Shown in pieces: positions 15,568-63,206 of a DNA stretch of 64,000 nucleotides. The stretch is from contig JAFYYH010000022.1 in NCBI GenBank assembly GCA_017557635.1, forward strand, positions 62,001 through 126,000, written 5' to 3'. The translations under genes were made by a program, and so were the position numbers. Numbering within the stretch: the stretch's first letter is position 1; the number at the start of each line of letters is the position of its first letter. The DNA is from Bacteroidaceae bacterium (GTDB lineage: Bacteria; Bacteroidota; Bacteroidia; Bacteroidales; Bacteroidaceae). The notes under the pieces were generated by a model. That model worked only from the letters and a program-made list of their open reading frames with translations. It did not search any database and had not been told where the DNA came from.

Positions 15568-15652
15568 CAATGGGGACGGTTCTCTTTGGCAAGTGGATAA
15601 GTTAGCTATAATCGCATACAAAAGCACTTGCCAAAGAGAACCGTCCCCATTG
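15568..15652. repeat. Inverted pair of REP-like palindromes (REPIN-like)
   Basis: Two 28-nt arms in opposite orientation (15568-15595 and 15625-15652), each with core GGGGACGGTTCTCTTTGGCA, are separated by 29 nt. The arms extend into GGCAAGTG/CACTTGCC. It fills the gap between the convergent genes mutS2 and nfo, and no other terminator is visible there, so it may itself end both transcripts. Confidence 0.8.
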
Positions 15653-15676
15653 TCACCCGCTCACCGTGGAGCAGTA

Positions 15677-16510
15677 TCACTCGAGGGAGTGTAATAATTC
15701 TATTTCTTGGGCCCAGAGGGTTTCGTCTGGGGTTTCCAGGATGAGGGGGATGTCGTCAAGATTGGGGTCCTTCATTATTTTCTTGAAGAAATCAAGACCT
15801 AGGAAGCCTTGGCCTATTGAGTCGTGGCGATCTACGCGTGAACCAAGTTCTTTCTTGCTGTCGTTCAAATGAATGGCACGCAGGTAATTGTAACCAATTT
15901 CATTGTCAAACTCTTCCCAGACGCTCTCATAGGCGTTTTTGAGGTCATAACCAGCCGTAAATGTATGACATGTGTCTATGCACACTCCCACGCGGGATTT
16001 ATCGGCCACACCGTCTATTATGCGCTTGATATGCCAGAATGCAAAACCCATGTTTGAGCCTTGTCCTGCAGTATTCTCAATGACTGCAGTCACACCTTTG
16101 GTCTTTTCAAGCGTAATATTTATGCTCTCTGCAATCCGATCCAAGCATTCCTCGGGAGTAATCTGCTTGAGATGGCTGCCGGGATGGAAGTTGAGCATGG
16201 TCAGACCAAGCTGCTCACAACGCTGCATTTCGTCAAGGAATGAGGCACGTGATTTCTCCAGTCCCTCGGCATCAGGACTGCCTAAATTGATCAGGTAGCT
16301 GTCGTGGGGAAGGATATATTTGGACTCAATTCCAGACTTTAATACCTCAACCTTAAATTTCTCTATTTCAGTTTGTTGCAGAGGTGTGCTAAACCACTGG
16401 CGCTGGTTCTTTGTGAACAGGGCAAAAGCCGATGCGCCTACTGACATTGCATTGATGGGAGCGTTGAATACACCTCCTGAAGCTGATACGTGTGGTCCTA
16501 TTTTTTTCAT
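15677..16510 (-). CDS. nfo: Endonuclease IV (apurinic/apyrimidinic endonuclease)
   Basis: Cleaves 5' of abasic sites using three zinc ions. 277 residues, normal for the family. The metal ligand regions are all present: [67 protein letters not shown] and LILETPDE. It lies downstream of the HTCS gene on the same strand, separated by an inverted REP copy, and converges on mutS2. Confidence 0.96.
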
Positions 16511-16534
16511 ATTTCAGTTATTAATTATCCTTTT

Positions 16535-16555
16535 GTGATGTGTCCCCAGTGTCAC
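16535..16555. repeat. Small palindrome related to the TGACACA family
   Basis: A 21-nt imperfect palindrome, GTGAtgtgTCCCCAGTGTCAC. It resembles the two 31-nt TGACACA palindromes at 45039 and 52733 and lies nine bases from a GGGGACGG-type REP copy. Confidence 0.4.
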
Positions 16556-16563
16556 CAAAAGTA

Positions 16564-16587
16564 GCCAAAGAGAACCGTCCCCAATGG
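16564..16587 (-). repeat. REP-like copy, single, minus orientation
   Basis: Minus strand carries GGGGACGGTTCTCTTTGGC, preceded by CCATT. It lies one base beyond the HTCS stop codon. Confidence 0.75.
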
Positions 16588-16588
16588 A

Positions 16589-19500
16589 TTATTTGCCCGA
16601 TTCGTCTGCCTCCAACTGGCGGATGTACTCGGTGGGGCTGACGCCGTAGTATTGCTTGAAGGTGGTGGAGAAGTGAGTTTGGGAGGCGAAACCTACGCTG
16701 TAGGCTATTTGCGATACGTTTACGCGCTTCTCCTTGAGGAGCTTCATAGCCTGCTGCATACGGATGTTCTGCATGAAACGGGCGGCTGAGAAGCCTGTCA
16801 GTTCCTTGAGCTTGCGGTGCAGCTGCGTGCGGCTCATACCTACCTCATCGACCATCTGGGTGATGTTGAAGTCGCTGTTCGAGATATTGGCGTTCACAAT
16901 CTCCATGACACGCTTCATGAACTGCTCATCGCTTGACTCGAACTGTATCTCAGCCACGTTGGATGACTGCTCCTGCTGGCCCGAGTACTTACCCTTAACA
17001 ATCAGACGGTTGCTGATAAGATTAGACATAAGTGACTTAAGCTCACTCATATAGAACGGCTTGGGCAGGTAACTGTCGGCACCGGTATCCAGACCCAGCA
17101 TACGGTCCTGCAGTTTGTTCTTACCCGAAAGCATGATAACCGGAATGTGACTGACCAGCGAGTTGCCCTTAAGAGCCTTAACCAACTGAATACCATCCAT
17201 TTCCGGCATCACAACATCGGTAATGATAAGGTCTGGCATCTGCGATACGGCGTACTTGAGACCCTCCTTACCGTTGCGCGCGGTAATAATGCGGTAGTTA
17301 TGCTTAAGGCTGTCAGACAGATAATCCAGCATAGAATCATCATCATCCACCAGCAGCACCTTGACGTTGCTCTTGATATGGTTCCTATCCTCGGGCACGT
17401 CATAATCCAGGCTTGCGCGGTTACGCTCCAGCTGAGGACGTGCAATCTGATCAGTATCCACAATATCCTCAGGCGCGATATGGCTGTTGCCAAGCGGCAG
17501 ACGGAATGAGAACACGCTTCCCGACTGACCGTCCTTGCGGTTATCGGCCTTGATGGTACCGTGGTGCATGCGAACAAGCATCTGGCTGTAATTCAGGCCG
17601 ATACCCATACCCATGGTAACCGATGTCAACTTGTTGTCAGCCCTGTAGAAACGCTGGAAAATGCGCTCAATGTCATCCTTGTCCAGGCCGATACCCGTAT
17701 CTGAGATTGAAATCTCCACATAGTTATGAAGAGGTCCCTTCTCGCTGTCATCGGTCCCTACCTCAACGCTCATCTCGATCTTTCCGCCGTCATTGGTGTA
17801 CTTGAAAGCGTTTGAGAGCAGGTTCATCATAACCTTGTCAATGCTGTCACGGTCAATCCAGACAGTCTGCTCAGCCATTGAATGGTTGAATGTGAAGTCG
17901 ATATTGCGCTTCTCGGCCGTCTGAGTGTAGAGTTCGAACGGTCCCATCAGGAAGTTAATCAGGTCAGTCTCGGCAAAATGCAGCTGCATCTGACCCTCAT
18001 CGAACTTACGCATATCCAGCAGCTGGTTAATCAGCGACAGGATTCTGGTCGAACTCTTGTGCATCTGACGCAGGTTGCTCTGCACATCGGCCGGGATTGA
18101 ACTGTTCTGCAGCATATCCTCGAGCGGCGAAATCACCATCGTCATAGGAGCGCAGATCTCATGGGCCACATTGATGAATGACTGGAACTTAGCCTCATCC
18201 ATCTCCCTCTGACGGGTTCTGCGGCGCATTCTGAAGATAACCATCAGGAACGCCAGCATCAGCAGGATATACACCACCATCGCGATCGATGAAGCATACC
18301 AAGGCGCTTCAATCTTGATTATGTAAGTCCTTGGCAATGAGACGATATCGTTCAGGCGGGCCCTAACAGAGAGTGTGTATCGGCCGTAACCCAGCTGCGA
18401 GAAACTGAAACGGTTCTGACCGGCCGGGTTGCTAACCCACTCGCCTCCGCCGGGGGTCATGGAGTATTCGTAGATAAGACTCTGCTCGTCACCGTAGTTC
18501 AACGAACTGAACTCCAGCGTGAAAGAGTTGTCACGGTAAGCCAGTCTGAACTGGTCCGATACCGCCAGCGGCTTCTCAGAAATTGGTTTGCCGCCGGATA
18601 ATGCACCGGATGTTATCAATTCACCGTTCAGGTAGAATCCCGTCAGAACCACCTTGTTGACAGATGATTCAGTGAAAATCCTATAGGGATAGAATGCGGT
18701 AATACCCGTATTGCTTGCAAAATACGCCCTGTCGTCCATGACAGAGAAGGCCGATACGCCATTAAACGCCTTCTCCTCGGTATAGAATCGGCTTATCTCA
18801 AAATCATCGGGGTTAATGCGGTTTATGCCGCCCGGGGTCGATACCCAAATGTAGCCTTCGCTATCCTTAACCATGCTGCGCACATCGTTGCTGGATAGGC
18901 CGCGGGCGGTATTCAGAGTGGTTGCCACACCATTGGTCATGTTGTAAACAATCACGCCTTTGGTGGTGCCGAACCAGATAATGCCCTCCCTCTCCTCAAG
19001 GATGCATGTACAGCCCGATGTTCCCATTGCCTCAACCAGTTTGTCGTTGTCGATGAACTCGCTGCGGTCAATGTCAAAGCAGTCTGCACCGTTGTCATGA
19101 CCTATCCAGAGCCTGTTCCAACTGTCCACCATCATAATGTGGATCCAGTCATTGTTCAGTGAACGGCCCTTACGGCTGCTCTTTGCGAAATCACCGTACA
19201 CCTCGGTCTTCATGTCCACGGGGTTCAGACGGCTGAAACCGGTACCAAGTTCTGAATAGTAGATACGTCCTTTACTGTCCTCGGCAATGGATGAAACGTT
19301 TGAATACTCATTGGAAATAACCATATCCAGACGACAGTTTTGAGTATTCAGTATTCCAAGACCCATGTTAGGACATCCTGCCCATATCCTGTTACGGCTG
19401 TCACGGAACAGGCAACTGATGAAAGGTGTGTTCCATCCTATCCTCAGAACCTGACCCGTACTTGACATGCAGGTAACGCTGTTATTGTTATAGCCTATCC

Positions 19501-20560
19501 ACAGACGGTTATCGGAATCAACAACCATAGCTGTCACAGTACCGGAAATATCTTCCTCATAATTGGAGAACTTCCAATAGTCAAACTCGTTGCGGTCCTT
19601 AGTCACCAGAATCAGGTCCGACAGGAAACAGCCGATCCATCTGTTACCTGCACGGTCCAGGTACATTGCACTCACATCCAGTCTTTCAAGGCTTCGGTCG
19701 GACGGTTTAATGTCATACTGCTCAAGTTTTCCGTCATCATTCAGATACAGAAGGCCCTTTCCTCGCAGCGATACCTTTAGACCCTCACGGTCAATGAATG
19801 AATGGGTTATCTCCCAGATACCCTCCTCGGGTGTTATACGTGTCAGGCGTCTTCTTGAAGTGCTCCACATGTACAGATGACTGTGATTGCTTATGAAAAT
19901 GTCACCGTCTTCATTCATGTTCACGCCAGTGATATCACCTGTAATGACATCCGTACTGAATTCCGTAATCTTGTCATTATGAGGATCATACAACAGTATA
20001 CCTGTAGCGGTTCCAATCCAGATGGTACCTTCCCTGTCCTCGACAAAACCCCTGAATATTCCCTGTGCCGGCGCGTAGTTGTTCAGGCTGACAATACCGT
20101 TCATCTGAACCGGATTCTGCGGATCTACCCAGTAGAGACCGTCTCCGGGGGCCGCAATCCATATCCTGCCGTCGCTCAGCTTGGTAATCTGCTGGATGTA
20201 TGGCAGCCTGTCTCCAGGAAACAAAACCGTATGGAAACTCTTTTCACTGGGTTTCAGATACTGTATGCCATGGTTGGTACCTATCCATAATGTTCCATCC
20301 TCATCAGTGTAAAGACTGCGGATGTAGTTACTCATCAATGACAGCGAATCATTGTTGTCATGAAAGAATTTCTGGAAATTGTAACCGTCATAGCGGTTCA
20401 GACCGTTCTCCGTACCAATCCAAATAAAACCCGAATTATCCTCACAGATAGCCTGGAAGCGGTTGTTTGACAACTGTCCCATCGAGTAGCGGTACGTCCT
20501 TTGTGCATTGACAGGAAGAAAGAACAATCCTGCAAGAAGAGCAATTATTGGCTTACGCAT
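16589..20560 (-). CDS. Hybrid two-component system sensor/regulator (HTCS)
   Basis: Senses an oligosaccharide in the periplasm and activates carbohydrate genes, all in one 1,323-residue protein. Order: signal peptide/first membrane segment (1-20), beta-propeller repeats (about 25-680, repeated IWIGTxxGLxxY units), Y_Y_Y domain (about 690-750), membrane helix (about 757-778), histidine kinase with phosphorylated H800 in VAHEICAP and an ATPase domain with LSNAFKYTNDGG, receiver with D1115 in DLIITDVVMPEMDG, and a C-terminal AraC-type DNA-binding domain (about 1215-1320, ending GVSPTEYIRQLE). It is divergent from the SGNH esterase, a likely target. The ligand is not predictable from sequence. 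Confidence 0.95.
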   Translation of the reverse strand: MRKPIIALLAGLFFLPVNAQRTYRYSMGQLSNNRFQAICEDNSGFIWIGTENGLNRYDGYNFQKFFHDNNDSLSLMSNYIRSLYTDEDGTLWIGTNHGIQYLKPSEKSFHTVLFPGDRLPYIQQITKLSDGRIWIAAPGDGLYWVDPQNPVQMNGIVSLNNYAPAQGIFRGFVEDREGTIWIGTATGILLYDPHNDKITEFSTDVITGDITGVNMNEDGDIFISNHSHLYMWSTSRRRLTRITPEEGIWEITHSFIDREGLKVSLRGKGLLYLNDDGKLEQYDIKPSDRSLERLDVSAMYLDRAGNRWIGCFLSDLILVTKDRNEFDYWKFSNYEEDISGTVTAMVVDSDNRLWIGYNNNSVTCMSSTGQVLRIGWNTPFISCLFRDSRNRIWAGCPNMGLGILNTQNCRLDMVISNEYSNVSSIAEDSKGRIYYSELGTGFSRLNPVDMKTEVYGDFAKSSRKGRSLNNDWIHIMMVDSWNRLWIGHDNGADCFDIDRSEFIDNDKLVEAMGTSGCTCILEEREGIIWFGTTKGVIVYNMTNGVATTLNTARGLSSNDVRSMVKDSEGYIWVSTPGGINRINPDDFEISRFYTEEKAFNGVSAFSVMDDRAYFASNTGITAFYPYRIFTESSVNKVVLTGFYLNGELITSGALSGGKPISEKPLAVSDQFRLAYRDNSFTLEFSSLNYGDEQSLIYEYSMTPGGGEWVSNPAGQNRFSFSQLGYGRYTLSVRARLNDIVSLPRTYIIKIEAPWYASSIAMVVYILLMLAFLMVIFRMRRRTRQREMDEAKFQSFINVAHEICAPMTMVISPLEDMLQNSSIPADVQSNLRQMHKSSTRILSLINQLLDMRKFDEGQMQLHFAETDLINFLMGPFELYTQTAEKRNIDFTFNHSMAEQTVWIDRDSIDKVMMNLLSNAFKYTNDGGKIEMSVEVGTDDSEKGPLHNYVEISISDTGIGLDKDDIERIFQRFYRADNKLTSVTMGMGIGLNYSQMLVRMHHGTIKADNRKDGQSGSVFSFRLPLGNSHIAPEDIVDTDQIARPQLERNRASLDYDVPEDRNHIKSNVKVLLVDDDDSMLDYLSDSLKHNYRIITARNGKEGLKYAVSQMPDLIITDVVMPEMDGIQLVKALKGNSLVSHIPVIMLSGKNKLQDRMLGLDTGADSYLPKPFYMSELKSLMSNLISNRLIVKGKYSGQQEQSSNVAEIQFESSDEQFMKRVMEIVNANISNSDFNITQMVDEVGMSRTQLHRKLKELTGFSAARFMQNIRMQQAMKLLKEKRVNVSQIAYSVGFASQTHFSTTFKQYYGVSPTEYIRQLEADESGK

Positions 20561-20593
20561 TTATATAAACAGACTGTAGTTTAGTAATTGTTC

Positions 20594-20601
20594 CAAAGGT
20601 A
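20594..20601 (-). promoter_or_regulatory. -7 box for the HTCS gene
   Basis: Minus strand TACCTTTG, about 34 bases before the HTCS ATG. Confidence 0.55.
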
Positions 20602-20604
20602 TCA

Positions 20605-20665
20605 TTAATTAGTATATGTTCCAAACCTTAAGTGTATCAATGGAACAAATCTTAATGTATATGAC
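20605..20665. promoter_or_regulatory. Candidate operator: three TTAA(n)GTAT direct repeats
   Basis: TTAAttaGTAT, TTAAgtGTAT and TTAAtGTAT have their GTAT elements at 20612, 20634 and 20657, that is 22 and 23 bases apart, about two helical turns. Direct repeats at such spacing are what AraC-type domains often bind. They lie between the HTCS promoter and the esterase promoter. TTCCAAA is also repeated at 20591 and 20619. This is an inference from pattern only. Confidence 0.3.
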
Positions 20666-20704
20666 AAACACGCCCGGTTTATAACAAGCGTCAGGTATAT
20701 TTAG

Positions 20705-20712
20705 TATCTTTA
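20705..20712 (+). promoter_or_regulatory. Weak -7 box for the SGNH esterase
   Basis: TATCTTTA departs from TAnnTTTG only at the last base, which would suit a promoter that needs an activator. It lies 43 bases before the ATG. Confidence 0.35.
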
Positions 20713-20754
20713 CCGCATCGAAAGAAGACTACGTAAACACTAAAATAACCAATT

Positions 20755-21954
20755 ATGAAACTTAAATCCTTCATTCTGACCGCCGTCATGACGGCATTCG
20801 TTTTGACACCCGCCAACGCAGGCAAGCATTGGGTAGCAACATGGGCAACAGCCGAGCAGGTTGTAGAACCGCATAACTGCCCCCCTGCCCCCGGTCTGCA
20901 GAACAACTCAATCCGTCAGATAGTCCAGACATCCATCAGCGGTAAGGAGGTCAGAGTAAAGTTCTCAAATGAATTCAGCCAGGGTCCTGTAACCATCAAC
21001 GCTGCAGAGATTGCACATGCAGCCACAGCAGGCGCCAGCAGCGACATCGTAGCCGGAACAGAGGTATCACTCACATTCAACGGCAGCAAGTCAGTAACAA
21101 TCCAGCCGGGTCAGCTTGTAACATCAGATCCCGTCAAGTTCCCCATGGCAAACCGTCAGAATGTGGCCATCACAATGCATCTGGGCGAGGCTTCATCAAC
21201 CAGCGTAACCGGTCACCCCGGTTCACGTACCGACTCATATCTCATTGAAGGTCAGGGTTCAGACTTTACAAACGCAGTCAAGACCGCTCACTGGTACATC
21301 ATCAACGCCATTGAGATCAAGGCCGAGAAGAAAGCCCGCGCAATCGTCGTTCTGGGCAACTCCATCACCGATGGCCGCGGATCAACCACCAACGAGCAGA
21401 ACCGCTGGACCGATAACCTGTCACGCCGTCTGCTTGCCAATAAGAAAACCAGCCGCGTATCAGTCCTTAACATGGGTCTGGGTGGCAACTGCGTACTCCA
21501 GGGCGGCCTTGGACCGACCGGTAAGAGCCGTTATCCGCGTGACCTCTTCCAGCAGGAGGGCGTCAAGTACATCATCCTCTTTGAGGGTGTGAATGACCTT
21601 GGCGGACGCGGTGATGCCACAGCAAAGGCAACTCAGATTGAGGAGGTTTACAAGCAGATCATTGCCGAGGCTCACGAGCGCGGAATCAAAGTTTACGGTG
21701 CTCCTGTAATGCAGTTCAAGGGTAACAACTACTATAGCGAGAACCACGAGGCAGGCCGTCAGCAGCTCAACCAGTGGATCCGTACAAGCGGTTACTTTGA
21801 CGGAGTCATCGACTTTGATGCCGCCATGGGTAACCCCGAAGATCCCGCACAGCTCAATCCCAAGTACCTCTTCGAGAACGACTACCTCCACCCCAATGCC
21901 GAGGGATACGTGCAGATGGGAAACTGCATCGACCTCAACCTCTTCGAGAAGTAA
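20755..21954 (+). CDS. Secreted SGNH/GDSL-type esterase
   Basis: 399 residues with a signal peptide ending at ANAG. An N-terminal beta-sandwich (about 25-190) precedes the SGNH fold. Block I is VVLGNSITDG with nucleophile S203, block II GLGGNC, block III FEGVNDLG, and block V DYLHPNAEGY with the Asp/His pair. Such two-domain enzymes include rhamnogalacturonan and acetyl-xylan esterases, so deacetylation of a plant polysaccharide is likely but unproven. It is divergent from the HTCS. A 44-bp tandem REP array begins at its stop codon. Confidence 0.88.
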   Translation: MKLKSFILTAVMTAFVLTPANAGKHWVATWATAEQVVEPHNCPPAPGLQNNSIRQIVQTSISGKEVRVKFSNEFSQGPVTINAAEIAHAATAGASSDIVAGTEVSLTFNGSKSVTIQPGQLVTSDPVKFPMANRQNVAITMHLGEASSTSVTGHPGSRTDSYLIEGQGSDFTNAVKTAHWYIINAIEIKAEKKARAIVVLGNSITDGRGSTTNEQNRWTDNLSRRLLANKKTSRVSVLNMGLGGNCVLQGGLGPTGKSRYPRDLFQQEGVKYIILFEGVNDLGGRGDATAKATQIEEVYKQIIAEAHERGIKVYGAPVMQFKGNNYYSENHEAGRQQLNQWIRTSGYFDGVIDFDAAMGNPEDPAQLNPKYLFENDYLHPNAEGYVQMGNCIDLNLFEK

Positions 21955-22118
21955 GCCATTGGGGACGGTTCTCTTTGGCACTATTTTATGACACTTAAGC
22001 CATTGGGGACGGTTCTCTTTGGCACTATTTTATGACACTTGGGGACGGATCTCTATTGGCAGGGAAATAATGCCAAAGAGAAGGTTTAGCTCGACGAAGT
22101 CAACCGTCCCCAAGTGGC
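21953..22118. repeat. Array of four REP-like copies, with 44-bp tandem duplication and one interrupted copy
   Basis: Two near-identical 44-bp units (starting 21953 and 21997) contain GCCATTGGGGACGGTTCTC followed by ACTATTTTATGACACTT. A third, degenerate plus copy lies at 22040-22060 (GGGGACGGATCTCTATTGG). A minus-orientation copy starts at 22072 but is split: CCAAAGAGAA and AACCGTCCCC are separated by about 20 extra bases. No terminator other than these palindromes is seen between the esterase and CotH genes. Confidence 0.8.
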
Positions 22119-32044: not shown

Positions 32045-33691
32045 ATGAGACACAGATTCAGCACTCTTGCCGACGTACTCGACTACTCGGCTTCAGTCAA
32101 CAACAGCCGCATGGTCTCCAACTACGTAGACGGCGGCTGCGGCTATACCTTCGGACAGTTCCGTGACAAATGCCTCCAGCTTTCAGGCGTACTCTCCACC
32201 TTCGGAATCAATGCCGATGACAAAGTCGCCATCCTGTCCGAGAACATGCCCAACTGGGCCCTGGCCTTCTTCTCAATCACCGCCAGTGGCCGAATCGCAG
32301 TCCCCATGCTGCCCGAGCTCTCACCCAACGAGGTTGAGAACATACTCACCCACTCCGACACCAAGGCCATATTCGTAAGCCACAGGCAACTGCCCAAAAT
32401 CAGTCAGGAAACGCTCGCTAAGTTACACTTAGTCATAGACATAAGCACGCTGGACTTCATTAAGGCCGAAGACGACCGATACACATGCGACGGCCGCGGA
32501 AAGGTACCCGAGCCCATGGACATAGCCGCCATCATCTACACATCGGGCACCACCGGCAACGCCAAAGGCGTCATGCTGAGCCACCGCAACTTCTGCCACA
32601 ACATACTCACAGCCTGGCACGCCCATAAGGTACATCGCCGCAAGGACGTCTTCCTGTCCATCCTGCCGCTGGCGCACACCTATGAGATGAGCATCGGCAT
32701 GCTCTACCCCTTCAGCACCGGCTGCCCCGTATATTACATTCAGAAGCCCCCTACACCGACAATTCTGGCCGATGCCATATTACGCATCCGCCCCACAACC
32801 ATACTGTCCGTTCCGCTCATAATTGAAAAGATCATACGCGGCAAAATCTTCCCCACAATAGCCTCCAGCAAGTATCTGCGCTATCTCAAGAAGCATTTCC
32901 CGCGCGTGCTCTACTTCCTTGTAGGCAAGAAGGTAAAGCAGCAGTTCGGCGGCCGCGTACGCTTCTTCGGCGTCGGCGGCTCCAAGCTTGACAAAGAGGT
33001 CGAGCAGTTCCTGCGCAACATAAAGTTCCCCTACGCCATCGGCTACGGCCTAACCGAGACCGCTCCTTTGATATGCGACGCCGGCCCCAAACGCACCCAT
33101 CTGGGCACCACCGGAACCGCATCATACGAGGTAAATGTACGTCTGGCCGATGTCAACCCCGAAACCGGTCAGGGCGAACTCCAGGTCAAAGGCCCCAACG
33201 TAATGCTTGGCTACTACAAAGATTATCAGCGCACTAAGGCAGTCTTCACCGAGGACGGCTGGATGCGCACCGGAGATATCGCCACCGTCGACAAGAAAGG
33301 CCGATACTCCATCCTGGGCCGCTCCGGCAGCGTCATCATCGGCGCATCGGGCGAAAACATCTACCCCGAGGAGATTGAGAGCGTCATTAACAACATATCG
33401 GACGTGAACGAATCACTCGTAATAAGCCGCTCAGGCCAGCTGGTAGCCCTTGTACAGTTCAACGACGGCGCCATCGACTGGAACCTTGAGGGTCAGGAGA
33501 AGTTCCTGGAGAACCTTGAGAAACGCAAGAAAGAGGTAATGGAATTCGTCAACTCAAAAGTGAGCCAGTTCCTCAAGATCAAGGACGTCGAGGTCATGAA
33601 AGAGCCCTTCAGCAAGACCGCCACGCACAAGATCCGCCGCTTCCTCTATCAGGACAAACAGAATAAGAACAATAAAACAGATAAGAAATGA
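32045..33691 (+). CDS. AMP-dependent acyl-CoA/acyl-acid ligase
   Basis: Activates a fatty acid through an acyl-adenylate. 548 residues with the ANL superfamily motifs: IIYTSGTTGNAKGVMLSH (P-loop), GYGLTETAPLI (A5), TGDIATVDKKGRYSILGR (A8 hinge) and GENIYPEEIE; the catalytic Lys near the C-terminus is probably in FSKTATHKIRR. It may produce acyl-CoA or acyl-ACP. It starts next to the acyltransferase stop and overlaps the hotdog gene by ATGA, so the three are a coupled operon. Confidence 0.92.
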   Translation: MRHRFSTLADVLDYSASVNNSRMVSNYVDGGCGYTFGQFRDKCLQLSGVLSTFGINADDKVAILSENMPNWALAFFSITASGRIAVPMLPELSPNEVENILTHSDTKAIFVSHRQLPKISQETLAKLHLVIDISTLDFIKAEDDRYTCDGRGKVPEPMDIAAIIYTSGTTGNAKGVMLSHRNFCHNILTAWHAHKVHRRKDVFLSILPLAHTYEMSIGMLYPFSTGCPVYYIQKPPTPTILADAILRIRPTTILSVPLIIEKIIRGKIFPTIASSKYLRYLKKHFPRVLYFLVGKKVKQQFGGRVRFFGVGGSKLDKEVEQFLRNIKFPYAIGYGLTETAPLICDAGPKRTHLGTTGTASYEVNVRLADVNPETGQGELQVKGPNVMLGYYKDYQRTKAVFTEDGWMRTGDIATVDKKGRYSILGRSGSVIIGASGENIYPEEIESVINNISDVNESLVISRSGQLVALVQFNDGAIDWNLEGQEKFLENLEKRKKEVMEFVNSKVSQFLKIKDVEVMKEPFSKTATHKIRRFLYQDKQNKNNKTDKK

Positions 33692-34158
33692 GTCTACGCA
33701 AAATCAAGAACCCCTGGGTAGGTACCGAAGGTTACAACTGCTTTGTCTGCAGCCCTAACAACCCCATCGGCCTGCACCTGTCGTTCTACGAGGATGGTGA
33801 TTACATAGTAACCAAGTTCAAGCCTACACATGATTACGAAAGCTGGCAAAACACGCTCCACGGAGGTATTCAGGCCCTCCTGATCGATGAGACCGCCGGC
33901 TGGGTAGTCTGCCGCAAACTGCAGACCAACGGCGTCACCTCAAAGATGGACATGCAGTACCTCAAGCCCGTCAGCACCCTGCTGGACGAAATCACCGTCC
34001 GCGCCAAAATCACCAAAATGATGCGCAACGTAGCCTTCATCGAGGCCGAACTCATGGATGCCGATGAAACCGTGCTGACCCGTGCAGACTTAGTCTACTT
34101 CTGCACACCCCAGTTCAAACTCAAACCCGGTGATTTCCCCGGCTGCGAACTGGAATGA
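33688..34158 (+). CDS. PaaI-type hotdog-fold thioesterase
   Basis: 156 residues, one hotdog domain with the helix signature NTLHGGIQALLIDETAGW, where HGG and the following acidic residue are typical of PaaI/YbgC-like acyl-CoA thioesterases. A Cys pair in GYNCFVCSPNNP near the N-terminus is usual in this subgroup. It would release acyl groups from CoA in the same pathway as the upstream ligase. The start overlaps the ligase stop by four bases (ATGA). The stop TGA is the second to fourth base of a REP copy. Confidence 0.9.
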   Translation: MSLRKIKNPWVGTEGYNCFVCSPNNPIGLHLSFYEDGDYIVTKFKPTHDYESWQNTLHGGIQALLIDETAGWVVCRKLQTNGVTSKMDMQYLKPVSTLLDEITVRAKITKMMRNVAFIEAELMDADETVLTRADLVYFCTPQFKLKPGDFPGCELE

Positions 34159-34187
34159 TACCATTGGGGACGGTTCTGTTTGGTACC
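34157..34187 (+). repeat. REP-like copy overlapping the hotdog gene stop codon
   Basis: GATACCATTGGGGACGGTTC continues with TGTTTGGTACC; outer arms ATACCA/TGGTA pair. The GA of the TGA stop is the start of the repeat. It separates the hotdog gene from the promoter of the acyl-ACP thioesterase. Confidence 0.8.
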
Positions 34188-34194
34188 GTTTTGC

Positions 34195-34202
34195 TAAATT
34201 TG
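34195..34202 (+). promoter_or_regulatory. -7 box for the acyl-ACP thioesterase
   Basis: TAAATTTG, 16 bases before the ATG at 34218. It supports this start over the upstream ATG at 34155, which would read through the REP copy. Confidence 0.6.
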
Positions 34203-34217
34203 CGAAAAAACTCAAAG

Positions 34218-34949
34218 ATGATCAAAAAACAAGTCCACACATATACGGTAAAGAGCTTTGAGTGCGATCGTAATGACACTCTGAGATTGCTCACTTTGCT
34301 TAATTTGTTTCAGGATATTGCCGATGACAGCGCCAACGAGATAGGCATCGGCTACGATTATCTGCGTACTGTCGGCAAGGCTTGGGTGCTCATTGCCATG
34401 AATGTGGAGATAGACCGCATGCCGCATCTGCAGGAGGAGATTACGCTCAAGAGTTGGCCATCGGACTTTTCGGCCCTTTATACAGAGCGTGAGTTTGAGG
34501 TGTGGAGTGCTGACGGACAGCGTATTATACGTGCCTGCAGCCAGTGGATAGTGATTGATTTCGAGTCACGCCGCCCCGTACATCTTAAGGAATGGCTGCC
34601 CGAATACGAGCCCATTCAAGAGAAGGTTATTATTGACGGCCGATTCCCGAAACTGCCGGTAGCCGAGCGCGATGATTACACTGAGCAGTTCCTGGTACGT
34701 TACGATGACATAGACCGTAACAATCACGTTAACAACGCAATATACCCACTCTGGGCAAGTGAAAGTCTACAGCCCGAGTATCGCATCGGCCATCAGCCCG
34801 CACGCCTGGAAATCAACTTCCGAAAAGAAGGTCTCTTTGGTGAGAAGATCAAGGTGCACACGCAAATGGAAGGCGACACCTCACTCCACAGCATCCAGTC
34901 CCTCAGCGACAACCGCGAGCTGGCCCGAATCCGCTTCACCTGGAGGTGA
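34218..34949 (+). CDS. Acyl-ACP thioesterase
   Basis: Terminates fatty-acid elongation by releasing free fatty acid from ACP. 243 residues with tandem hotdog domains of the plant FatA/FatB-like family. FQDIADDSANEIGIGYDYL and WVLIAMNVEIDRMP are in the first, and the active-site element YDDIDRNNHVNNAIYPLW with Asn/His in the second. It stands next to acyl-CoA ligase and acyltransferase genes, so the four may recycle or remodel acyl chains. The TGA stop is part of a REP (GTGACAAAGGGGACGG). Confidence 0.9.
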   Translation: MIKKQVHTYTVKSFECDRNDTLRLLTLLNLFQDIADDSANEIGIGYDYLRTVGKAWVLIAMNVEIDRMPHLQEEITLKSWPSDFSALYTEREFEVWSADGQRIIRACSQWIVIDFESRRPVHLKEWLPEYEPIQEKVIIDGRFPKLPVAERDDYTEQFLVRYDDIDRNNHVNNAIYPLWASESLQPEYRIGHQPARLEINFRKEGLFGEKIKVHTQMEGDTSLHSIQSLSDNRELARIRFTWR

Positions 34950-35065
34950 CAAAGGGGACGGTTCCGTTTGGCACGTCTGAATAAAACAAAAACCCCACCT
35001 GAGCATACTGTAGCGCAGATGGGGTTCTTTTTGTGCGTGCCAAACGGAACCGTCCCCTTTGTCAC
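34946..35065. repeat. Inverted pair of REP-like palindromes around a terminator
   Basis: Plus copy 34946-34974 and minus copy 35037-35065, each GTGACAAAGGGGACGGTTCC plus GTTTGGCAC. The TGA in each outer end is the stop codon of the adjoining gene: the acyl-ACP thioesterase on + and GH3 on -. A normal terminator lies between the two arms. Confidence 0.85.
34988..35032. terminator. Bidirectional terminator nested in the REP pair
   Basis: AACCCCACCTG (34991-35001) pairs with CAGATGGGGTT (35016-35026) with one mismatch; A-rich sequence precedes it and T-rich sequence follows it, so it can act for both convergent genes. Confidence 0.75.
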
Positions 35066-37383
35066 TGGAGATTCACTTCGATCTTGGAGACGATGTTTCC
35101 GGCATCGCGGGCAAGGAGGGCTTCCATTTTGCCCAGATCCATTACCCAATCGTGCTTATCCTCATTCCAGTATTTGAGTGACTCAAACGGAATTGTGAGG
35201 GTTACAGGTACGCTCTCACCGGCCTTGACCAGCACCTTGTCAAATGCCTTGAGCTCCTTGTAAGGCCACTCAACCGATGAATCCACGTGACGGATGTAAA
35301 CCTGAGGCACCTCATACTGGTCATACTTGCCTACATTGGTCAGAGTTACTGTGAACTTAATGTCTTTGCCGCCCAAAGGCAAAACCGGCTGGAAAGCTGA
35401 ATATATAACCTCAGAGTAACCCAGACCATATCCGAACGGATACATAACCGGCTTTTCCTTGGTGTCAAACCAACGGTAACCTACCAGCAGGTCCTCTGAA
35501 TACAATGCTGTACCGCGGCCTGTAGCGCCCTTGAGCATCTCCTCGGCCTTGCTGTCCTCCTGAACCAGTGATACGAATACATCCTGGTTGACGGGAGCAT
35601 CGGTCTGCGGGAAATTACCCATTGCATAAGCGGGGCTGTCCTCAAGCTTGAAGGGATATGAGAACGGCAGACGGCCGCTGGGAGAATATTGGCCGATAAG
35701 AATGTCGGCCAGAGCATTACCGCCCTCGGTACCGTTGAACCATGACTGTATGATTGCGGGGCTGCAAGCCTGAACGCGGTTCAGATCAACCGGAGCACCT
35801 GCAACTGCAATGAACACAACATTAGGATTAACAGCAGCTACAGCCTCCAGAACGTTCTCCTGATCATACGGGAGCATCATGCTGCGACGGTCACTGCCCT
35901 CGGTCTCATGTGAACGGTTGTCACCACCGATGAACAGCACCAGGTCAGCACCCTTGGCAGCCTTTACAGCCTCATCCTGCAGCTTCTTTGCAGTATCATC
36001 GGGCTTAGACTGAGCAGCGGGAGCCTGAGCAGCACCTCCGCCACGACGCCCAAATCCGCCAAAACCGCCTCCAAATCCGCCGAATCCGCCACGTGCCTGC
36101 TGTGAAGTATAACCCTGAGCATAAACGATCTTGGCCTTATCACCTATCCTATTCTTCAGACCGGCCAGAGGAGTAACCTCATACAGAGCCTTCACGCCTG
36201 CACCAACGCCGCCGGTAGCCATGATCTTATCGGCATTGTCACCGATAACGGCAATGGTCTTAACCTTATCAAAGTCAATAGGCAGCAGATCACCCTCATT
36301 CTTAAGCAGAACGATAGACTGCAGGGCAACCTGATAGGCAATCTGAGCCTGCTCGGGCTTAGCGGTCATCTCAATGTTGGCCTTATCCTCGGGAACCGGC
36401 TCAATGGCAAGACGAACACGCAGAATCTCACGAACGCGCTCATCGATAACAGCCTCAGATACAGCGCCTGCAGCAACAGAATCCAGCAGAGCCTGACCCA
36501 GATACTGAGAGTTAGGCATCTCAACGTTCAGACCGGCCACGACAGAACCCACAGTGCTGTGAGTGCCGCCCCAGTCAGAGATAACCATACCCTTGAAACC
36601 CCAGTCCTTACGCAGGATAGAGTTCAGCAGCTCATAATTCTCGGCGCACCAGAAGCCGTTAATCTTATTGTAGGCCGACATCACACCGAATGCGTTACCC
36701 TCAACGATTGCAGCCTCAAACGGCGGCAGATAGATCTCACGCATGGCACGCGGGCTAACGATAACGTTCACGCTGCCGCGGTTGGTCTCCTGGTTGTTCA
36801 GCGCAAAATGCTTCACGCAGACAGCCACGCCGTTATCCTGAACACCTTTTGTATAAGCGACCGATAACTTTGAACTCAGCAGAGGATCCTCACTGAGATA
36901 CTCGTATGTACGTCCGCCGGTAGGAATACGCTGAATGTTGATGGCAGGACCCAGAATCATGTCCTTACCGCGCAGACGGGCCTCACGGGCCATTCCCACG
37001 CCGTATATATAAGCCATATCACTGTTCCAGGTAGCAGCCAGGGCCGATCCTGTGGGGAAGAAAGTAGCAGAGTCAGTAGTCAGATGCAGAGAGTTCCATG
37101 AATGGGGCTCCATCTCCTCACGGATACCAAAAGGACCATCGGCATAAACCATATCGGCAATACCCTGGGCGGGCACACCCTCGGAAGTGAACATATGCTT
37201 TCCGTGAAGCATTGCGACCTTCTCCTCGAGCGTCATCTTCTTGATGATGGCCGTAATCTTTTTCTCATTCTGCATCAGAGGGTCATCGTACCCTTTGACA
37301 TCACGCGACAATGTTGCGTCACCACCCTTGCAACCGCAAACAGCCAAAGCAAAAATGGCGACAATCAGAAGATTCTTTCTCAT
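35062..37383 (-). CDS. Glycoside hydrolase family 3 lipoprotein with Gly-rich insert
   Basis: Beta-glucosidase-type enzyme, 773 residues. SPII signal with Cys near residue 18 (VCGCKGG). GH3 N-terminal domain with KHFALNNQETNRG and GMVISDWGGTHS, where D270 is the expected nucleophile; C-terminal domain with LLKNEGDLLP; FnIII-like end with WPYKELKAFDKV. About residues 432-463 form a low-complexity insert (RGGFGGFGGGFGGFGRRGGG then Ala/Pro) between the two domains, which GH3 enzymes normally lack. Last gene of the beta-helix/PepSY/C11 operon (14-base gap). The TGA stop belongs to a REP copy. Confidence 0.92.
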   Translation of the reverse strand: MRKNLLIVAIFALAVCGCKGGDATLSRDVKGYDDPLMQNEKKITAIIKKMTLEEKVAMLHGKHMFTSEGVPAQGIADMVYADGPFGIREEMEPHSWNSLHLTTDSATFFPTGSALAATWNSDMAYIYGVGMAREARLRGKDMILGPAINIQRIPTGGRTYEYLSEDPLLSSKLSVAYTKGVQDNGVAVCVKHFALNNQETNRGSVNVIVSPRAMREIYLPPFEAAIVEGNAFGVMSAYNKINGFWCAENYELLNSILRKDWGFKGMVISDWGGTHSTVGSVVAGLNVEMPNSQYLGQALLDSVAAGAVSEAVIDERVREILRVRLAIEPVPEDKANIEMTAKPEQAQIAYQVALQSIVLLKNEGDLLPIDFDKVKTIAVIGDNADKIMATGGVGAGVKALYEVTPLAGLKNRIGDKAKIVYAQGYTSQQARGGFGGFGGGFGGFGRRGGGAAQAPAAQSKPDDTAKKLQDEAVKAAKGADLVLFIGGDNRSHETEGSDRRSMMLPYDQENVLEAVAAVNPNVVFIAVAGAPVDLNRVQACSPAIIQSWFNGTEGGNALADILIGQYSPSGRLPFSYPFKLEDSPAYAMGNFPQTDAPVNQDVFVSLVQEDSKAEEMLKGATGRGTALYSEDLLVGYRWFDTKEKPVMYPFGYGLGYSEVIYSAFQPVLPLGGKDIKFTVTLTNVGKYDQYEVPQVYIRHVDSSVEWPYKELKAFDKVLVKAGESVPVTLTIPFESLKYWNEDKHDWVMDLGKMEALLARDAGNIVSKIEVNLQ

Positions 37384-47011: not shown

Positions 47012-47019
47012 AAAAAAGA

Positions 47020-47080
47020 GCCAAAGGGGACGGTTCTCTTTGGCCCTTTTTGGTGACAAAGGGGACGGTTCTCTTTGGCA
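47020..47080 (+). repeat. Two tandem REP-like copies between divergent promoters
   Basis: Copy 1 at 47020-47044 is a continuous hairpin with CGG loop (GCCAAAGGGGA / TTCTCTTTGGC, using two G-T pairs). Copy 2 at 47053-47080 begins GTGACAAAGGGGACGG. TTTG at 47074-47077 in copy 2 is 21 bases upstream of the pepP -7 box. Confidence 0.8.
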
Positions 47081-57036: not shown

Positions 57037-57070
57037 TGCAGTTTTTTGAAAAACAATAGCCATACACAAT

Positions 57071-58054
57071 ATGAAATACTACATCCTATTCGGCCCTCCG
57101 GGCGCAGGTAAAGGCACACAGGCAGGTGCCATATCAGAGAAATACAACCTGAAACACATAAGCACAGGTGAGATGCTGCGTAATGAGATCGCAGCAGGTA
57201 CAGAACTTGGCAAACAGGCCAAGGAACTGATCGATGCCGGCAATCTGGTACCCGACAGCGTAGTTGAGGGCATGATTGAGAGCACCTTCAACAACAACAA
57301 GAACGTAGCAGGATTCCTGCTCGACGGATTCCCCCGCACCCTTGGCCAGGCTGTTGACCTGGATGAGATGCTTGCCCGCCGCGGTGAGAAGGTAAATGCC
57401 GTAATCTCAATAATGATTAAGGATGAGACCATCAAGCAGCGCATCCAGCACCGCGCCGAGATTGAGGGTCGTGCCGATGACGCCAATGAGGAGACCATAA
57501 AGAACCGCATAGCAACATATCACAAGCAGACCGAGCCCCTTATCACATATTACAAGAACGCCGGCAAGTACCAGGAGGTAGACGGCGAGTGCGGCGGCAT
57601 TGAGGACGTACGCAAGGCCATGTTCCGCGTGTTCAAGGGCATCGACCGCAAGTTCATGGAGCGTCAGGTAGTACTTGATGACTCACTGCTTGATAAGGTA
57701 CAGATGCTGGCTCAGGAGTCACCCCGTCTGCGCATGAATTACGATTTGCGCAACAGTGAGGATGACCAGTCACAGCGTATGCTCAACGTAATGCTGCCCG
57801 GCACCCACACCACCATCCACAAGCACAATCTGTCAAGCGAGACCGTTATGCTTATGCGCGGTAAGATGGATACCGTATTCTACAACAACAAGGGCGTTGA
57901 GATGCAGCGCATCCACATGGGTGGCGATACAGGCGTCTTTGGCGTGAACATCCCCAAGGGCCAGTGGCACACCTTTGAGGTCTATGACCTTAGCATCATC
58001 TTCATGGCTCAGGATGGTCCCTGGAGCCCCCTCTCCAAGGAGAACATGCTCTAA
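57071..58054 (+). CDS. adk: Adenylate kinase fused to a WbuC-type cupin
   Basis: 327 residues. Residues 1-190 are a complete short adenylate kinase: P-loop GPPGAGKGTQ (8-17), AMP site FLLDGFPRT (82-90), and the short lid RIQHRAEIEGRADD, converting ATP + AMP to 2 ADP. Residues ~199-320 are a full WbuC-family cupin: DDSLLDKVQMLAQESPRLRM, HTTIHKH, an ET pair and GQWHTFEV, with probable metal ligands H250, H252, E257 and H300. Adenylate kinases normally end near residue 190-215. The junction is continuous in one frame with no stop, so this is a fusion rather than two genes. WbuC is often found near O-antigen genes; the polysaccharide operon follows downstream. Confidence 0.94.
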   Translation: MKYYILFGPPGAGKGTQAGAISEKYNLKHISTGEMLRNEIAAGTELGKQAKELIDAGNLVPDSVVEGMIESTFNNNKNVAGFLLDGFPRTLGQAVDLDEMLARRGEKVNAVISIMIKDETIKQRIQHRAEIEGRADDANEETIKNRIATYHKQTEPLITYYKNAGKYQEVDGECGGIEDVRKAMFRVFKGIDRKFMERQVVLDDSLLDKVQMLAQESPRLRMNYDLRNSEDDQSQRMLNVMLPGTHTTIHKHNLSSETVMLMRGKMDTVFYNNKGVEMQRIHMGGDTGVFGVNIPKGQWHTFEVYDLSIIFMAQDGPWSPLSKENML

Positions 58055-58065
58055 GCAGCACCAGC

Positions 58066-58200
58066 GGCGGTACCATTGGGGACGGTTCTGTTTGGTACCG
58101 TTTTATAACTAGCTACAAAAAGAACAGCGACTTACAATTAAGCCGCTGTTTCTTATTTAGCAAAACGGTACCAAACAGAACCGTCCCCAATGGTACCGCC
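58066..58200. repeat. Inverted pair of REP-like palindromes with 39-nt perfect arms
   Basis: Arms 58066-58104 and 58162-58200 are perfect inverted copies (GGCGGTACCATTGGGGACGG continuing TTCTGTTTGGTACCGTTTT). It lies between convergent adk and the Wzz-like gene and encloses a normal terminator. Confidence 0.85.
58117..58155. terminator. Bidirectional terminator nested in the REP pair
   Basis: GAACAGCG (58122-58129) pairs with CGCTGTTT (58144-58151), A-rich before and T-rich after. Confidence 0.7.
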
Positions 58201-58208
58201 TCAGCTCG

Positions 58209-59324
58209 CTAAGCGAACTGCTCTTTCAGTTTGGGCCAGTAGTTCTTGGCAAGGACGATTCCGCAGCCTAGGATGCCTCCGAAGAATGTCCAGACGATTA
58301 ATGTCTTGGCGCGGCTGTTTGACGGTCTGTCGGGAACTGTGACGGGCTGGATCACTGTCAGCACAGGAGTATCGCGCTTTACTTGGAGCTTGGCCTGCTC
58401 CAACTGCTTGGCAAGTTCGCTGTAGATAGCATTTGACGTATTGTACTTAGACTGAATACGGTCATGCTCAATACGGTCCTTAGTTGTAGTGATGTTCTGA
58501 GTCTTATCAGTAATCTTAGCTAACTGCTCCTGATATGACTCAGTCTCCTTCTTGATTTCATCATAGCGGGCCTGAATATACTCAAGTTCACTCTCAGACT
58601 TCTCAATACGGAAACGTGTAATCTCCTCCTGCAGCAACTGCTGAGCCTTCATAGCCAGTTCTGCGGTCTGAATCGGCTCAGAACCCACAACATTCAGAGT
58701 GATGTAACCCTCCTTCTTATCGACGGCAAGCGAAACACTCTCGCTTATAGCCTTCAGGACCTTGACCTCATCCTTGGTCAGGACCAGCGGCTTGGGATTG
58801 TCATCGGCCCCGTCAGAAGGCAGCACGATATCGGGTTTCTCCTTACGGATAGCGCCCAGGATTACGCCAGGAAGGCCGATGGTGTACTTCTTGATTGTAC
58901 CCATTACGGTAGGCTTTGCAATCTCGGTTGCATATGTGAACATGCTCACTGCGGTGTCAACCTTTGCGTAGTGTACCGGAGTGTACATCAGCTCCTTACG
59001 GAAAGGAACACTGTTTACAATCTGCGGATAGATAAGCGGTGAAAGCTCGGCACCACCGGCCGATGAACCTAAATCTATGCCTGCCAGTGAGGCCAGACTG
59101 CTCAGAGATGAACTTGACTTGGAACCACCCACCTGAGGCACCATTACAGTGCTAACCGAGTAGGTACGCTTCATAGTCAGCGCAGCCACAAAACCAAGCA
59201 CAATAAACGCACAGGTCCAGATAATGATGGTCTTGCGGCCATCCCAAAGCTGCTTAACCAGCGCCATTATGTCTATGCCCTCCTCATCATCCATGAGAGG
59301 AGCGTTATTCATATCTTCCTGCAT
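58209..59324 (-). CDS. Wzz-type polysaccharide co-polymerase
   Basis: 371 residues. Membrane helices near both ends (TIIIWTCAFIVLGFVAALTM and VWTFFGGILGCGIVLAKNYW) enclose a periplasmic domain with a long coiled coil (about 215-300, EITRFRIEKSESELEYIQ...). A Pro-rich pre-TM2 motif VIQPVTVPDRPSN is typical of the family. It sets chain length and/or couples export. No tyrosine kinase domain is attached. One base separates its ATG from the Wza-like gene's stop, so the two are co-translated. Confidence 0.92.
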   Translation of the reverse strand: MQEDMNNAPLMDDEEGIDIMALVKQLWDGRKTIIIWTCAFIVLGFVAALTMKRTYSVSTVMVPQVGGSKSSSSLSSLASLAGIDLGSSAGGAELSPLIYPQIVNSVPFRKELMYTPVHYAKVDTAVSMFTYATEIAKPTVMGTIKKYTIGLPGVILGAIRKEKPDIVLPSDGADDNPKPLVLTKDEVKVLKAISESVSLAVDKKEGYITLNVVGSEPIQTAELAMKAQQLLQEEITRFRIEKSESELEYIQARYDEIKKETESYQEQLAKITDKTQNITTTKDRIEHDRIQSKYNTSNAIYSELAKQLEQAKLQVKRDTPVLTVIQPVTVPDRPSNSRAKTLIVWTFFGGILGCGIVLAKNYWPKLKEQFA

Positions 59325-59325
59325 A

Positions 59326-61995: not shown

Positions 61996-62018
61996 ATAGT
62001 GCATTAATTAATTTGCCG

Positions 62019-62026
62019 CAAAATTA
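62019..62026 (-). promoter_or_regulatory. -7 box for the Wza/Wzz-like genes
   Basis: Minus strand TAATTTTG, 23 bases before the ATG at 61995. It suggests these two genes are transcribed separately from manA-manC. Confidence 0.55.
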
Positions 62027-62071
62027 CTAATAATATATATAATAACGCGCCCAAGCCCCGATTATTGCGCA

Positions 62072-62137
62072 GCGGTACCATTGGGGACGGTTCCGTTTGG
62101 TATCGCGGTACCATTGGGGACGGTTCCGTTTGGTATC
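62072..62137 (+). repeat. Two tandem REP-like copies (33-bp unit) after manC
   Basis: Two identical 33-bp units GCGGTACCATTGGGGACGG plus TTCCGTTTGGTATC, at 62072-62104 and 62105-62137. They lie between the manC stop codon and the Wza-like promoter. Confidence 0.85.
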
Positions 62138-62141
62138 GTTT

Positions 62142-63206
62142 TTAAGCTCCAAACTCTTTGATGCGCTGCTCCTCAGAACGCTTGCAAACCAACAGTTGTC
62201 CACCCTTCTCTGAGACAATATAACCGTCAAGTCCCTGAAGAACAACCTTCTTAAGTCCCTCAGTATGAACTACGCAATTATCACTCTCATAGAACTTTAC
62301 GTTGCCAACCACAGCGTTATTATGCTCATCCTTAACCAGTTTCTCATGAAGTGATTGCCAATTGCCCAAATCACTCCATCCAAAGTCCGCCGGATAAGTA
62401 AACACCTTACCATCAGCTGCCGCCGGCTCCATTACAGCATAGTCAATAGAAATCTTCTCACACTGCGGGAAAATCTGCAAAACGATACCATTGGGGACGG
62501 TTCCGTTTGGTACTGTTTTCAAATCCGGAACCATCTCATCCATTTGCGCAGCAAGGTCAGCCTTGTAAGCCCTGATAGATTCCGTGATCGTCTTAATGTT
62601 CCAAACAAATATTCCGGCATTCCACAGGTAGTTGCCATCGGCCAAATACTTCTTTGCAGTCTCCAGGTCCGGTTTCTCCTTGAAAGCCTCAACTGCCTGA
62701 ATCTCCATCTTAGCATCCTTAACAGGTACAGCCTTAACGTATCCATAGCCCGTTTCCGGCCTATTTGGTTTAATGCCGATGGTAACGATGAAATCATGGC
62801 CCGATGTAAACTCCAATGCGCCCGATATAACGCGTCTAAACTCCTCGGGATTCATAACCACAGCATCGCTAGGAGTAACAACAACATTAGCCTCAGGATC
62901 CTCACGCTTAATGCTCCAACAAGCCCATGCAATGCAAGGAGCCGTATTACGAGCAGCAGGCTCAGCCAGAATGTGCTCTGCAGGTATTCCAGGAATCTGC
63001 TCCTTAACAATATCCACGTAAGCCTGGTTGGTAACCACCCAGAAGTTGCTCTCAGGGCAAATACCCTTGAATCGGTCCACGGTCAACTGAATCAGCGACC
63101 GACCACAACCCAAAATATCAATAAACTGCTTAGGAAACTCCGGAGTACTAAGAGGCCAAAAACGGCTTCCAATACCACCAGCCATAATAACAACGTGATT
63201 TGCCAT
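62142..63206 (-). CDS. manC: Mannose-1-phosphate guanylyltransferase with in-frame REP copy
   Basis: Makes GDP-mannose from mannose-1-phosphate and GTP. 354 residues: MAGGIGSRFWPLSTPEFPKQ signature, ILAEPAARNTAPCIAWA, the substrate-binding TGYGYV and YLWNAGIFVW, then PQCEKISIDYAVME. Residues 231-241 (VPNGTVPNGI) are encoded by a REP copy of 30 bases, a multiple of three, just before PQCEKISID; the frame is intact. The class IV phosphomannose isomerase domain of long ManC is absent; manA lies upstream. Start at 63206 is chosen because homology begins there; its ATG is two bases after the manA stop. Confidence 0.95.
   Translation of the reverse strand: MANHVVIMAGGIGSRFWPLSTPEFPKQFIDILGCGRSLIQLTVDRFKGICPESNFWVVTNQAYVDIVKEQIPGIPAEHILAEPAARNTAPCIAWACWSIKREDPEANVVVTPSDAVVMNPEEFRRVISGALEFTSGHDFIVTIGIKPNRPETGYGYVKAVPVKDAKMEIQAVEAFKEKPDLETAKKYLADGNYLWNAGIFVWNIKTITESIRAYKADLAAQMDEMVPDLKTVPNGTVPNGIVLQIFPQCEKISIDYAVMEPAAADGKVFTYPADFGWSDLGNWQSLHEKLVKDEHNNAVVGNVKFYESDNCVVHTEGLKKVVLQGLDGYIVSEKGGQLLVCKRSEEQRIKEFGA
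62484..62513 (+). repeat. REP-like copy inside manC
   Basis: GATACCATTGGGGACGGTTC then CGTTTGGTAC, 30 bases in frame. Outer flanks AAAAC/GTTTT extend the palindrome, so the inserted unit may be 41 bases (62479-62519). Confidence 0.85.

Follow-up and report, generated by a model that had tools for sequence, protein, structure and literature searches.

The closest described relatives of the system reported here are the TIRYT genes with their TIRtrons (PMC3733652) and the subclass 2.1 TnpA-Y1 genes (PMC6006769), which share with it a transposase resembling the REP-associated tyrosine transposases (RAYTs; REP, repetitive extragenic palindrome), flanking GGGG inverted repeats and a C-terminal extension. 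The published consensus of these terminal inverted repeats (TIRs) is GGGGWSAS. TIR families in dimers or clusters and TIRs that are partly self-complementary have been noted before, as have two TIR families corresponding to two TIRYT genes in S. maltophilia K279a. For the subclass 2.1 genes, automatic and manual searches are reported to have found no REP-like sequences (PMC6006769). Here we describe a family of palindromes in a 64,000-nucleotide stretch (the window) of a Bacteroidaceae bacterium (GenBank assembly GCA_017557635.1, contig JAFYYH010000022.1, here C20, positions 62001-126000), together with two RAYT genes on the same contig. The assembly comprises 2.44 Mb in 24 contigs and is 89.3% complete. 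Palindromes and RAYTs very probably constitute a REPIN-RAYT system (REPIN, REP doublet forming hairpins) of the GGGG-core, TIRYT-like branch, to which we liken it by motif and description.

All 17 palindromes listed by the first-pass annotation are present: the head GGGGACGG matches 17 times in the window (2.07 expected from 100 shuffles, the largest giving 6), and the longer pattern GGGGACGGTTCNNTTTGGY, with up to three mismatches, matches 16 times against 0.29 expected. The claim that every copy shares the core stands for the 15 of 17 that carry GGGGACGGTTC, and fails for the copies at 22041 (GGGGACGGATC) and 22104 on the minus strand (GGGGACGGTTGAC), which deviate. Genome-wide, exact GGGGACGGTTC occurs 163 times (88 + 75) against once (1 + 0) for the reversed control. 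All 163 copies were recovered in the fetched stretches and occupy 15 of the 24 contigs, so that the family is not regional, a restriction under which the REP interpretation would have failed. An Rfam search of the window at gathering thresholds returned one tRNA and nothing else, and the GGGGACGGTTC letters are listed for two papers, both with unrelated titles.

The core of the hairpin measures 13 nt and consists of a 5-nt inner stem GGGGA, a CGG loop and a 5-nt TTC-type inner stem with G.T pairs. Outward from it lie two mostly unpaired positions (T.T), paired in just 41 and 50 of the 159 distinct copies, followed by variable arms. The first-pass annotation had described these outer arms as varying yet pairing, which holds strongly at position 6 (139 of 159 copies paired; mean 107.0 and maximum 118 in 2000 shuffles) and also at positions 7 (112; mean 94.7, maximum 109), 9 (98; mean 78.4, maximum 94) and 10 (98; mean 66.7, maximum 86), but neither at position 8, where no excess is seen (102 of 159, shuffle mean 101.0), nor next to the core. 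Because such within-genome shuffles take no account of relatedness among the 159 copies, the inheritance of two or three classes accounts for most of the signal. Three arm classes, a (GCC/GGC), b (GTACC/GGTAC) and c (GTGACAAA/TTTGGCAC), cover 151 of the 163 copies (72, 54 and 25, respectively), leaving five class a variants and seven unclassed copies. The previously proposed arm pair GATACCA/TGGTATC does not occur inside any one window copy: copy 34166 has GATACCA/TGGTACC, 62493 has GATACCA/TGGTACT, and 62083 and 62116 both have GGTACCA/TGGTATC.

The palindromes are organised into doublets. Among 70 neighbour pairs at most 160 bp apart, 59 are oriented '+-', eight '++', three '--' and none '-+', and every one of the 59 '+-' pairs joins copies of the same class (27 a-a, 3 a-variant, 17 b-b and 12 c-c). 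The repeated unit is therefore an inverted doublet of like REPs, as in REPINs. Core-to-core spacing is quantised, mainly to 37, 66 and 90 in class a, to 93 in 12 of 12 class c pairs and to 35-45 or 94-112 in class b. The dispersed unit is either a near-palindrome of 62-72 bp or a longer unit of 93-139 bp, in many cases with a terminator-like hairpin inside. Folded as RNA, a complete class c unit (34946-35065) forms a single long hairpin with a z of -14.0.

Inverted REP doublets are likewise the dispersed unit in Pseudomonas fluorescens SBW25, where three REPIN groups are each tied to one RAYT in the genome (PMC3116915), a comparable linkage. Those REPINs have another core and belong to another RAYT branch, and their groups are different REP sequences, whereas here one head is combined with different arms. 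The present family also departs from TIRYT in that the stem and not the head separates its classes; its own head GGGGACGG leaves the published GGGGWSAS at letter 7, whereas the heads of relatives, GGGGACAG and GGGGTCAG, fit. Set against the subclass 2.1 survey (PMC6006769), which reports a search result and not a definition, this genome has 163 hairpin copies in same-class inverted doublets. Literature searches outside subscription journals and supplements turned up no title or abstract on such a GGGG-core REPIN system, and a printed precedent is possible.

The window itself holds no RAYT gene, as the first-pass annotation had stated, and the nearest, RAYT-1 (C20:126387-127184), starts 387 bp beyond its last base. 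Searching the genome for a RAYT-type Y1 gene flanked by the same palindrome, as had been proposed, identified RAYT-1 and RAYT-2 (C20:227274-228071), which are 63% identical and both flanked on both sides. Class a pairs lie on each side of RAYT-2. Class b copies follow RAYT-1 downstream, and on its upstream side lies a class b pair whose heads read GGGACGG and which has a central hairpin. Within 10 kb of RAYT-1 there are 12 class b and no class a copies (0.44 class b expected if uniform), and within 10 kb of RAYT-2 there are 19 class a and no class b copies (0.59 class a expected). The HUH motif reads HVH and the Y-x-x-x-NP motif YIHQNP in both proteins; across 62 homologues H68, H70, Y127 and N131 are invariant and P132 is conserved in at least 90%. 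Their fold is that of the REP-bound RAYT (the VIA search taking in residues 1-197), with, compared with E. coli TnpA-REP (PDB 4er8), an extra helical C-terminal region at residues 204-260 of the model. HTH_38 and HTH_23 match five each of the 62 homologues, the HTH_23 match of RAYT-2 being weak (E 0.12).

A weak third RAYT-like match, the divergent protein L035 (C20:211846-212214; 28-30 bits to the REP-associated tyrosine transposase model NF047646), has no palindromes nearby and lies beside frames that we take from their translations to be recA-like and dnaK-like. The segment carrying RAYT-2 (L154:9654-11905, that is C20:225954-228205) is absent from the orthologous site in the sister genome G024 and in the same-genus genome G070, where the flanks are 120 and 71 bp apart, respectively. 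A neighbouring gene (L154:9792-10594) sits elsewhere in G024, so that genes have been shuffled between palindromes.

Homologous loci in other genomes provide a better test of arm covariation than within-genome shuffles. The closest RAYT homologues are from metagenome-assembled genomes of Bacteroidaceae and other Bacteroidales, including ones from sheep reticulum and horse faeces, and thus place the organism in the Bacteroidales. Across phyla, 51 of the 80 relatives kept as the best out of 82 have a GGGGAC hairpin within 300 bp whose arms reach 4 bp or more, 28 of them on both sides, and 69 have the wider core GGGG[ACT]C[AGT][GC] within 400 bp of the RAYT. The best arm reaches at least 5 bp in 46 of these 69 loci, as against a mean of 6.4 and a maximum of 16 when partners were taken from other loci (200 rounds), which bears out the covariation anticipated for a REP family. 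In RAYT loci of Bacteroidota, Bacillota and Actinomycetota the GGGG core is kept, while the arms have changed yet are complementary, and inner-stem variants, e.g., GGGGTCAGACCCC, preserve pairing. Arm similarity tracks RAYT identity (r 0.444 for those 37 of the 62 loci in alignment A2 whose arms reach 5 bp or more; 0 of 5000 permutations), both in 12 Bacteroidales (0.673) and in 25 others (0.420; 0 of 5000 permutations each). In a tree of 64 proteins, RAYT-2 groups first with L039 (100/99) and next with L049 (91/80), each of which has GCCAAA arms, and RAYT-1 groups with seven others (100/95), six of which have GTAC or ATAC arms.

At the genome level, seven of 81 genomes (own plus family) have a RAYT homologue at E <= 1e-20, and a strong excess of GGGGACRGWYC is confined to the present genome (G000; 172 versus 4 in the control) and G024 (54 versus 4). 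G024 has two RAYTs with differing arms of their own, GAGCCAA and GCACACAAA, and a third for which no arms were found. The same-genus genomes G050 and G070 have no RAYT at E <= 1e-20 and contain 1 and 3 GGGGACRGWYC copies. Recent transfer between phyla was considered and is unsupported, since all 19 Bacteroidota rows fall on one side of a branch (100/98). Homologues in plasmid and phage records (12 and 1 records, E <= 1e-10) are all below 60% identity.

Wobble pairs in the inner stem are one-sided: over 46 homologous loci (230 cells) there are 72 G.T against 2 A.C, which points to the GGGG strand as the one that folds. Single-stranded DNA folding energies back this clearly for class c alone (-7.4 kcal/mol for the GGGG strand versus -3.2), the corresponding values being -7.9 versus -7.2 kcal/mol for a class b copy and -6.4 kcal/mol on either strand for the class a copy at 47020.

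Many elements end precisely at the stop codon of a gene. Open reading frames (ORFs) were called mechanically and counted if they had at least 100 codons, or 60 when running off the stretch, and ended -200 to +40 from GGGG. Such an ORF is met by 113 of the 152 outer element ends, and in 54 of the 113 the stop lies exactly at the element boundary (class a 20/48, b 16/36, c 17/23). Of the 59 clusters with both ends tabulated, nine show such fusion on both sides, 26 on one side and 24 on neither. The class c arm itself contains TGA. All 16 fused class b ends have T at -10, giving TGA, TAG or TAA, and 23 of 36 others have C there, unfused ends being mostly CGATACC or CAGTACC. A fixed stop-like target motif fits the fusion less well than would selection on the stop or its regeneration, since many ends lack a preceding stop-like triplet and the class b base at -10 differs. 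Truncation of genes by insertion was also rejected: in 10 of the 11 comparisons, made at six fused ends, the element-free sister orthologue stops no more than one codon away; the exception is C20:225968, where G070 is eight codons longer and G024, which bears another element there, likewise eight longer. The palindromes of the window are arranged as follows.

15562..15658, both orientations: inverted class a pair separating convergent genes, with GGGG at 15572 + and 15648 -; the TAA stop of ORF 13039-15567 is fused to its left end.
16563..16589, minus strand: lone class a copy, to which ORF 16589-20560 (-) is fused by its TAA stop.
21954..22118, both orientations: four clustered copies, of which 21961 + and 22005 + are exact class a while 22041 + and 22104 - are degenerate; the TAA stop of ORF 20755-21954 is fused to the cluster's left end, and the orthologous stop in G024 has no element after it.
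34159..34185, plus strand: lone class b copy, to which ORF 33688-34158 is fused by its TGA stop.
34946..35065, no strand assigned: class c unit of 120 bp with a central terminator-like hairpin, one of the 12 equally spaced class c pairs; each end gives the TGA stop of one of the convergent ORFs 34155-34949 (+) and 35062-37383 (-).
47019..47080, plus strand: tandem class a copies (47026, 47061) between divergent ORFs.
58066..58200, no strand assigned: class b unit containing a central hairpin; ORFs 57071-58054 (+) and 58209-59324 (-) converge on it but are unfused, with stops at -26 and -23.
62076..62135, plus strand: tandem class b copies (62083, 62116).
62486..62512, plus strand: lone class b copy within a called ORF.

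Two genes of the window lie between such elements. An AP_endonuc_2 (endonuclease IV-like) gene at 15677-16510 is inverted with respect to its neighbours, G024 and G050 sharing the other orientation. The palindromes at 15562-15658 and 16563-16589 border it, so that this lineage has probably undergone an inversion between palindromes. An acyl-ACP thioesterase gene (34155-34949), with palindromes at its borders, is inverted relative to its neighbours in G024, and its stop is fused to an element in both genomes although the classes differ (TGA here, TAG in G024). Its called start falls in a palindrome (34155-34220), and the true start is probably downstream, as the DNA resembles that of G024 only from 34214 onwards.

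Of the 93 clusters, 51 lie between tandem, 28 between convergent and seven between divergent genes, with four intragenic and three at stretch ends. Relative to element-free gaps of at least 30 bp, convergent gaps are enriched (28/86 versus 6/60, p 0.0014) and divergent gaps depleted (7/86 versus 16/60, p 0.0047). According to PMC3733652, GTAG/CGTC REPs often supply a stop codon with their termini and, between convergent genes, are found near the 3' end of each, and PMC12306157 reports on a group of E. coli REPs located near stop codons; the stop-codon trait is thus common to REPs and not new in kind.

The longer units enclose a second structure. In 36 long pairs (cores at least 60 bp apart, arms cut off), a strong central hairpin, defined by a stem length minus twice the mismatches of at least 8, is present in 28, compared with 1.3 on average and 4 at most over 40 shuffled rounds; a laxer count gives 34 of 36, some using arm letters. 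By class, it occurs in 12/12 b, 11/12 c and 5/12 a pairs. A T-rich stretch follows 27 of the 28 hairpins and an A-rich stretch also precedes 25, as would suit putative terminators. Several centre families show paired changes, such as GCAGCGACG/CGTCGCTGC and GCAGCTACG/CGTAGCTGC in class b, and the class a pair at C19:316626 contains a class b-like centre, so that centres may be exchanged between units.

These features raise the alternative that the palindromes are selected gene-end signals, either bidirectional terminators or mRNA-stabilising hairpins, whose mobility is ancient or minor. The stop-fused ends, the convergent-gap excess and the terminator-like centres all speak for such a role, which is compatible with a REPIN-RAYT system. 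However, G050 and G070 lack such elements within the same genus, sister orthologues end without them and local clustering at the cognate RAYTs indicates spread, and we regard this explanation as improbable. Equally hard to sustain is the proposal that these are ordinary miniature inverted-repeat transposable elements (MITEs) mobilised by an unrelated transposase, with RAYT proximity being incidental: the 120-bp class c units, with a conserved centre and no RAYT of their own here, are indeed MITE-like, but class-specific clustering at two RAYTs, the same core beside RAYT homologues in three phyla and arms that track RAYT identity all speak otherwise. That the palindromes are classical GTAG- or CGTC-tagged REPs can be practically dismissed, for although they share with such REPs the palindromic form, the inverted doublets, the flanking of RAYTs and the 3'-end location (PMC3733652 and PMC3116915), GTAG or GTGG precedes the hairpin (-14 to -9 from GGGG) in just 6 of 163 copies, there is no constant GTAG foot as in E. 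coli REPs/BIMEs (bacterial interspersed mosaic elements) with TnpA-REP, and the conserved letters here are in the head instead of the foot; the palindromes are not GTAG-tagged REPs but resemble the TIRYT branch of RAYTs with its GGGG motif.

Several observations weigh against a REPIN-RAYT system as we describe it. Both RAYTs score below the curated cut-off of 80 bits for NF047646 (58 and 59.3 bits; E-values 9e-16 and 4e-16). For the 25 class c copies, whose 12 pairs have identical spacing and related centres, the assembly contains no separate RAYT; the class c mobiliser may be missing from the assembly, or may be RAYT-1 or RAYT-2. Folding clearly prefers the GGGG strand in one class of three. 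Shared descent alone could also yield the arm-to-RAYT correlation, and L041 lies inside the RAYT-1 clade yet has GAGCCAA arms. The core motif is lacking within 400 bp at 11 of the 80 RAYT loci, and in 23 of the remaining 69 the best arms are shorter than 5 bp. Copies distant from RAYTs failed as a negative control, since 128 of 274 more than 1 kb away are armed, compared with 137 of 249 near, and RAYT flanks are not singled out. Five other RAYT-bearing family genomes, with more distant homologues, have the core at background, and a small core excess occurs without a RAYT match in G065 (11 versus 1), G006 (9 versus 1) and G048 (11 versus 3). Copy number, RAYT flanking, the linkage of classes to RAYTs, arm complementarity, one-sided G.T pairs and stop-codon fusion are shown directly, and RAYT binding, cleavage, mobility, arm reading and termination are inferred. 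Nevertheless, the spread of the copies, the arm complementarity and the RAYT genes flanked by the same palindromes support the REP/RAYT interpretation of the first-pass annotation, and we have high confidence that RAYTs and palindromes form one system.

We propose the following as the most likely mechanism for this REPIN-RAYT system. The HUH-Y1 RAYT would recognise a single-strand hairpin on the GGGG strand, in which the head would mark the family and the arms the cognate RAYT, with RAYT-2 serving class a and RAYT-1 class b. The doublet would spread via a single-stranded intermediate, preferring sites near its own RAYT gene, and persisting copies would be those at gene 3' ends, where the element end could supply or rebuild the stop codon. 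In a more speculative extension, which we consider possible though on balance doubtful, the hairpin would be a two-part address, composed of a GGGG head and a re-codable stem read by the RAYT, and the units would be mobile gene-end cassettes. The head would then have been kept across Bacteroidota, Bacillota and Actinomycetota, while paralogous RAYTs in one genome would run separate, non-mixing element populations. Units would land in or beside stops and regenerate them with their own ends, CAG or CGA becoming TAG or TGA after a T in class b, and would carry an exchangeable bidirectional terminator between their hairpins, making insertion nearly harmless.

A RAYT-like branch at which a survey reported no REP-like repeats (PMC6006769) is here accompanied by a large and well-structured REPIN population. 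Because the two cognate pairs in one genome share a head and differ in their arms, what a RAYT reads in its REP is testable by arm swaps, and the natural series of arms at 46 related loci offers a data set for the recognition code. The fusion to stop codons, together with the enclosed terminator-like hairpins, would give a concrete reason for the persistence of such elements in compact genomes.
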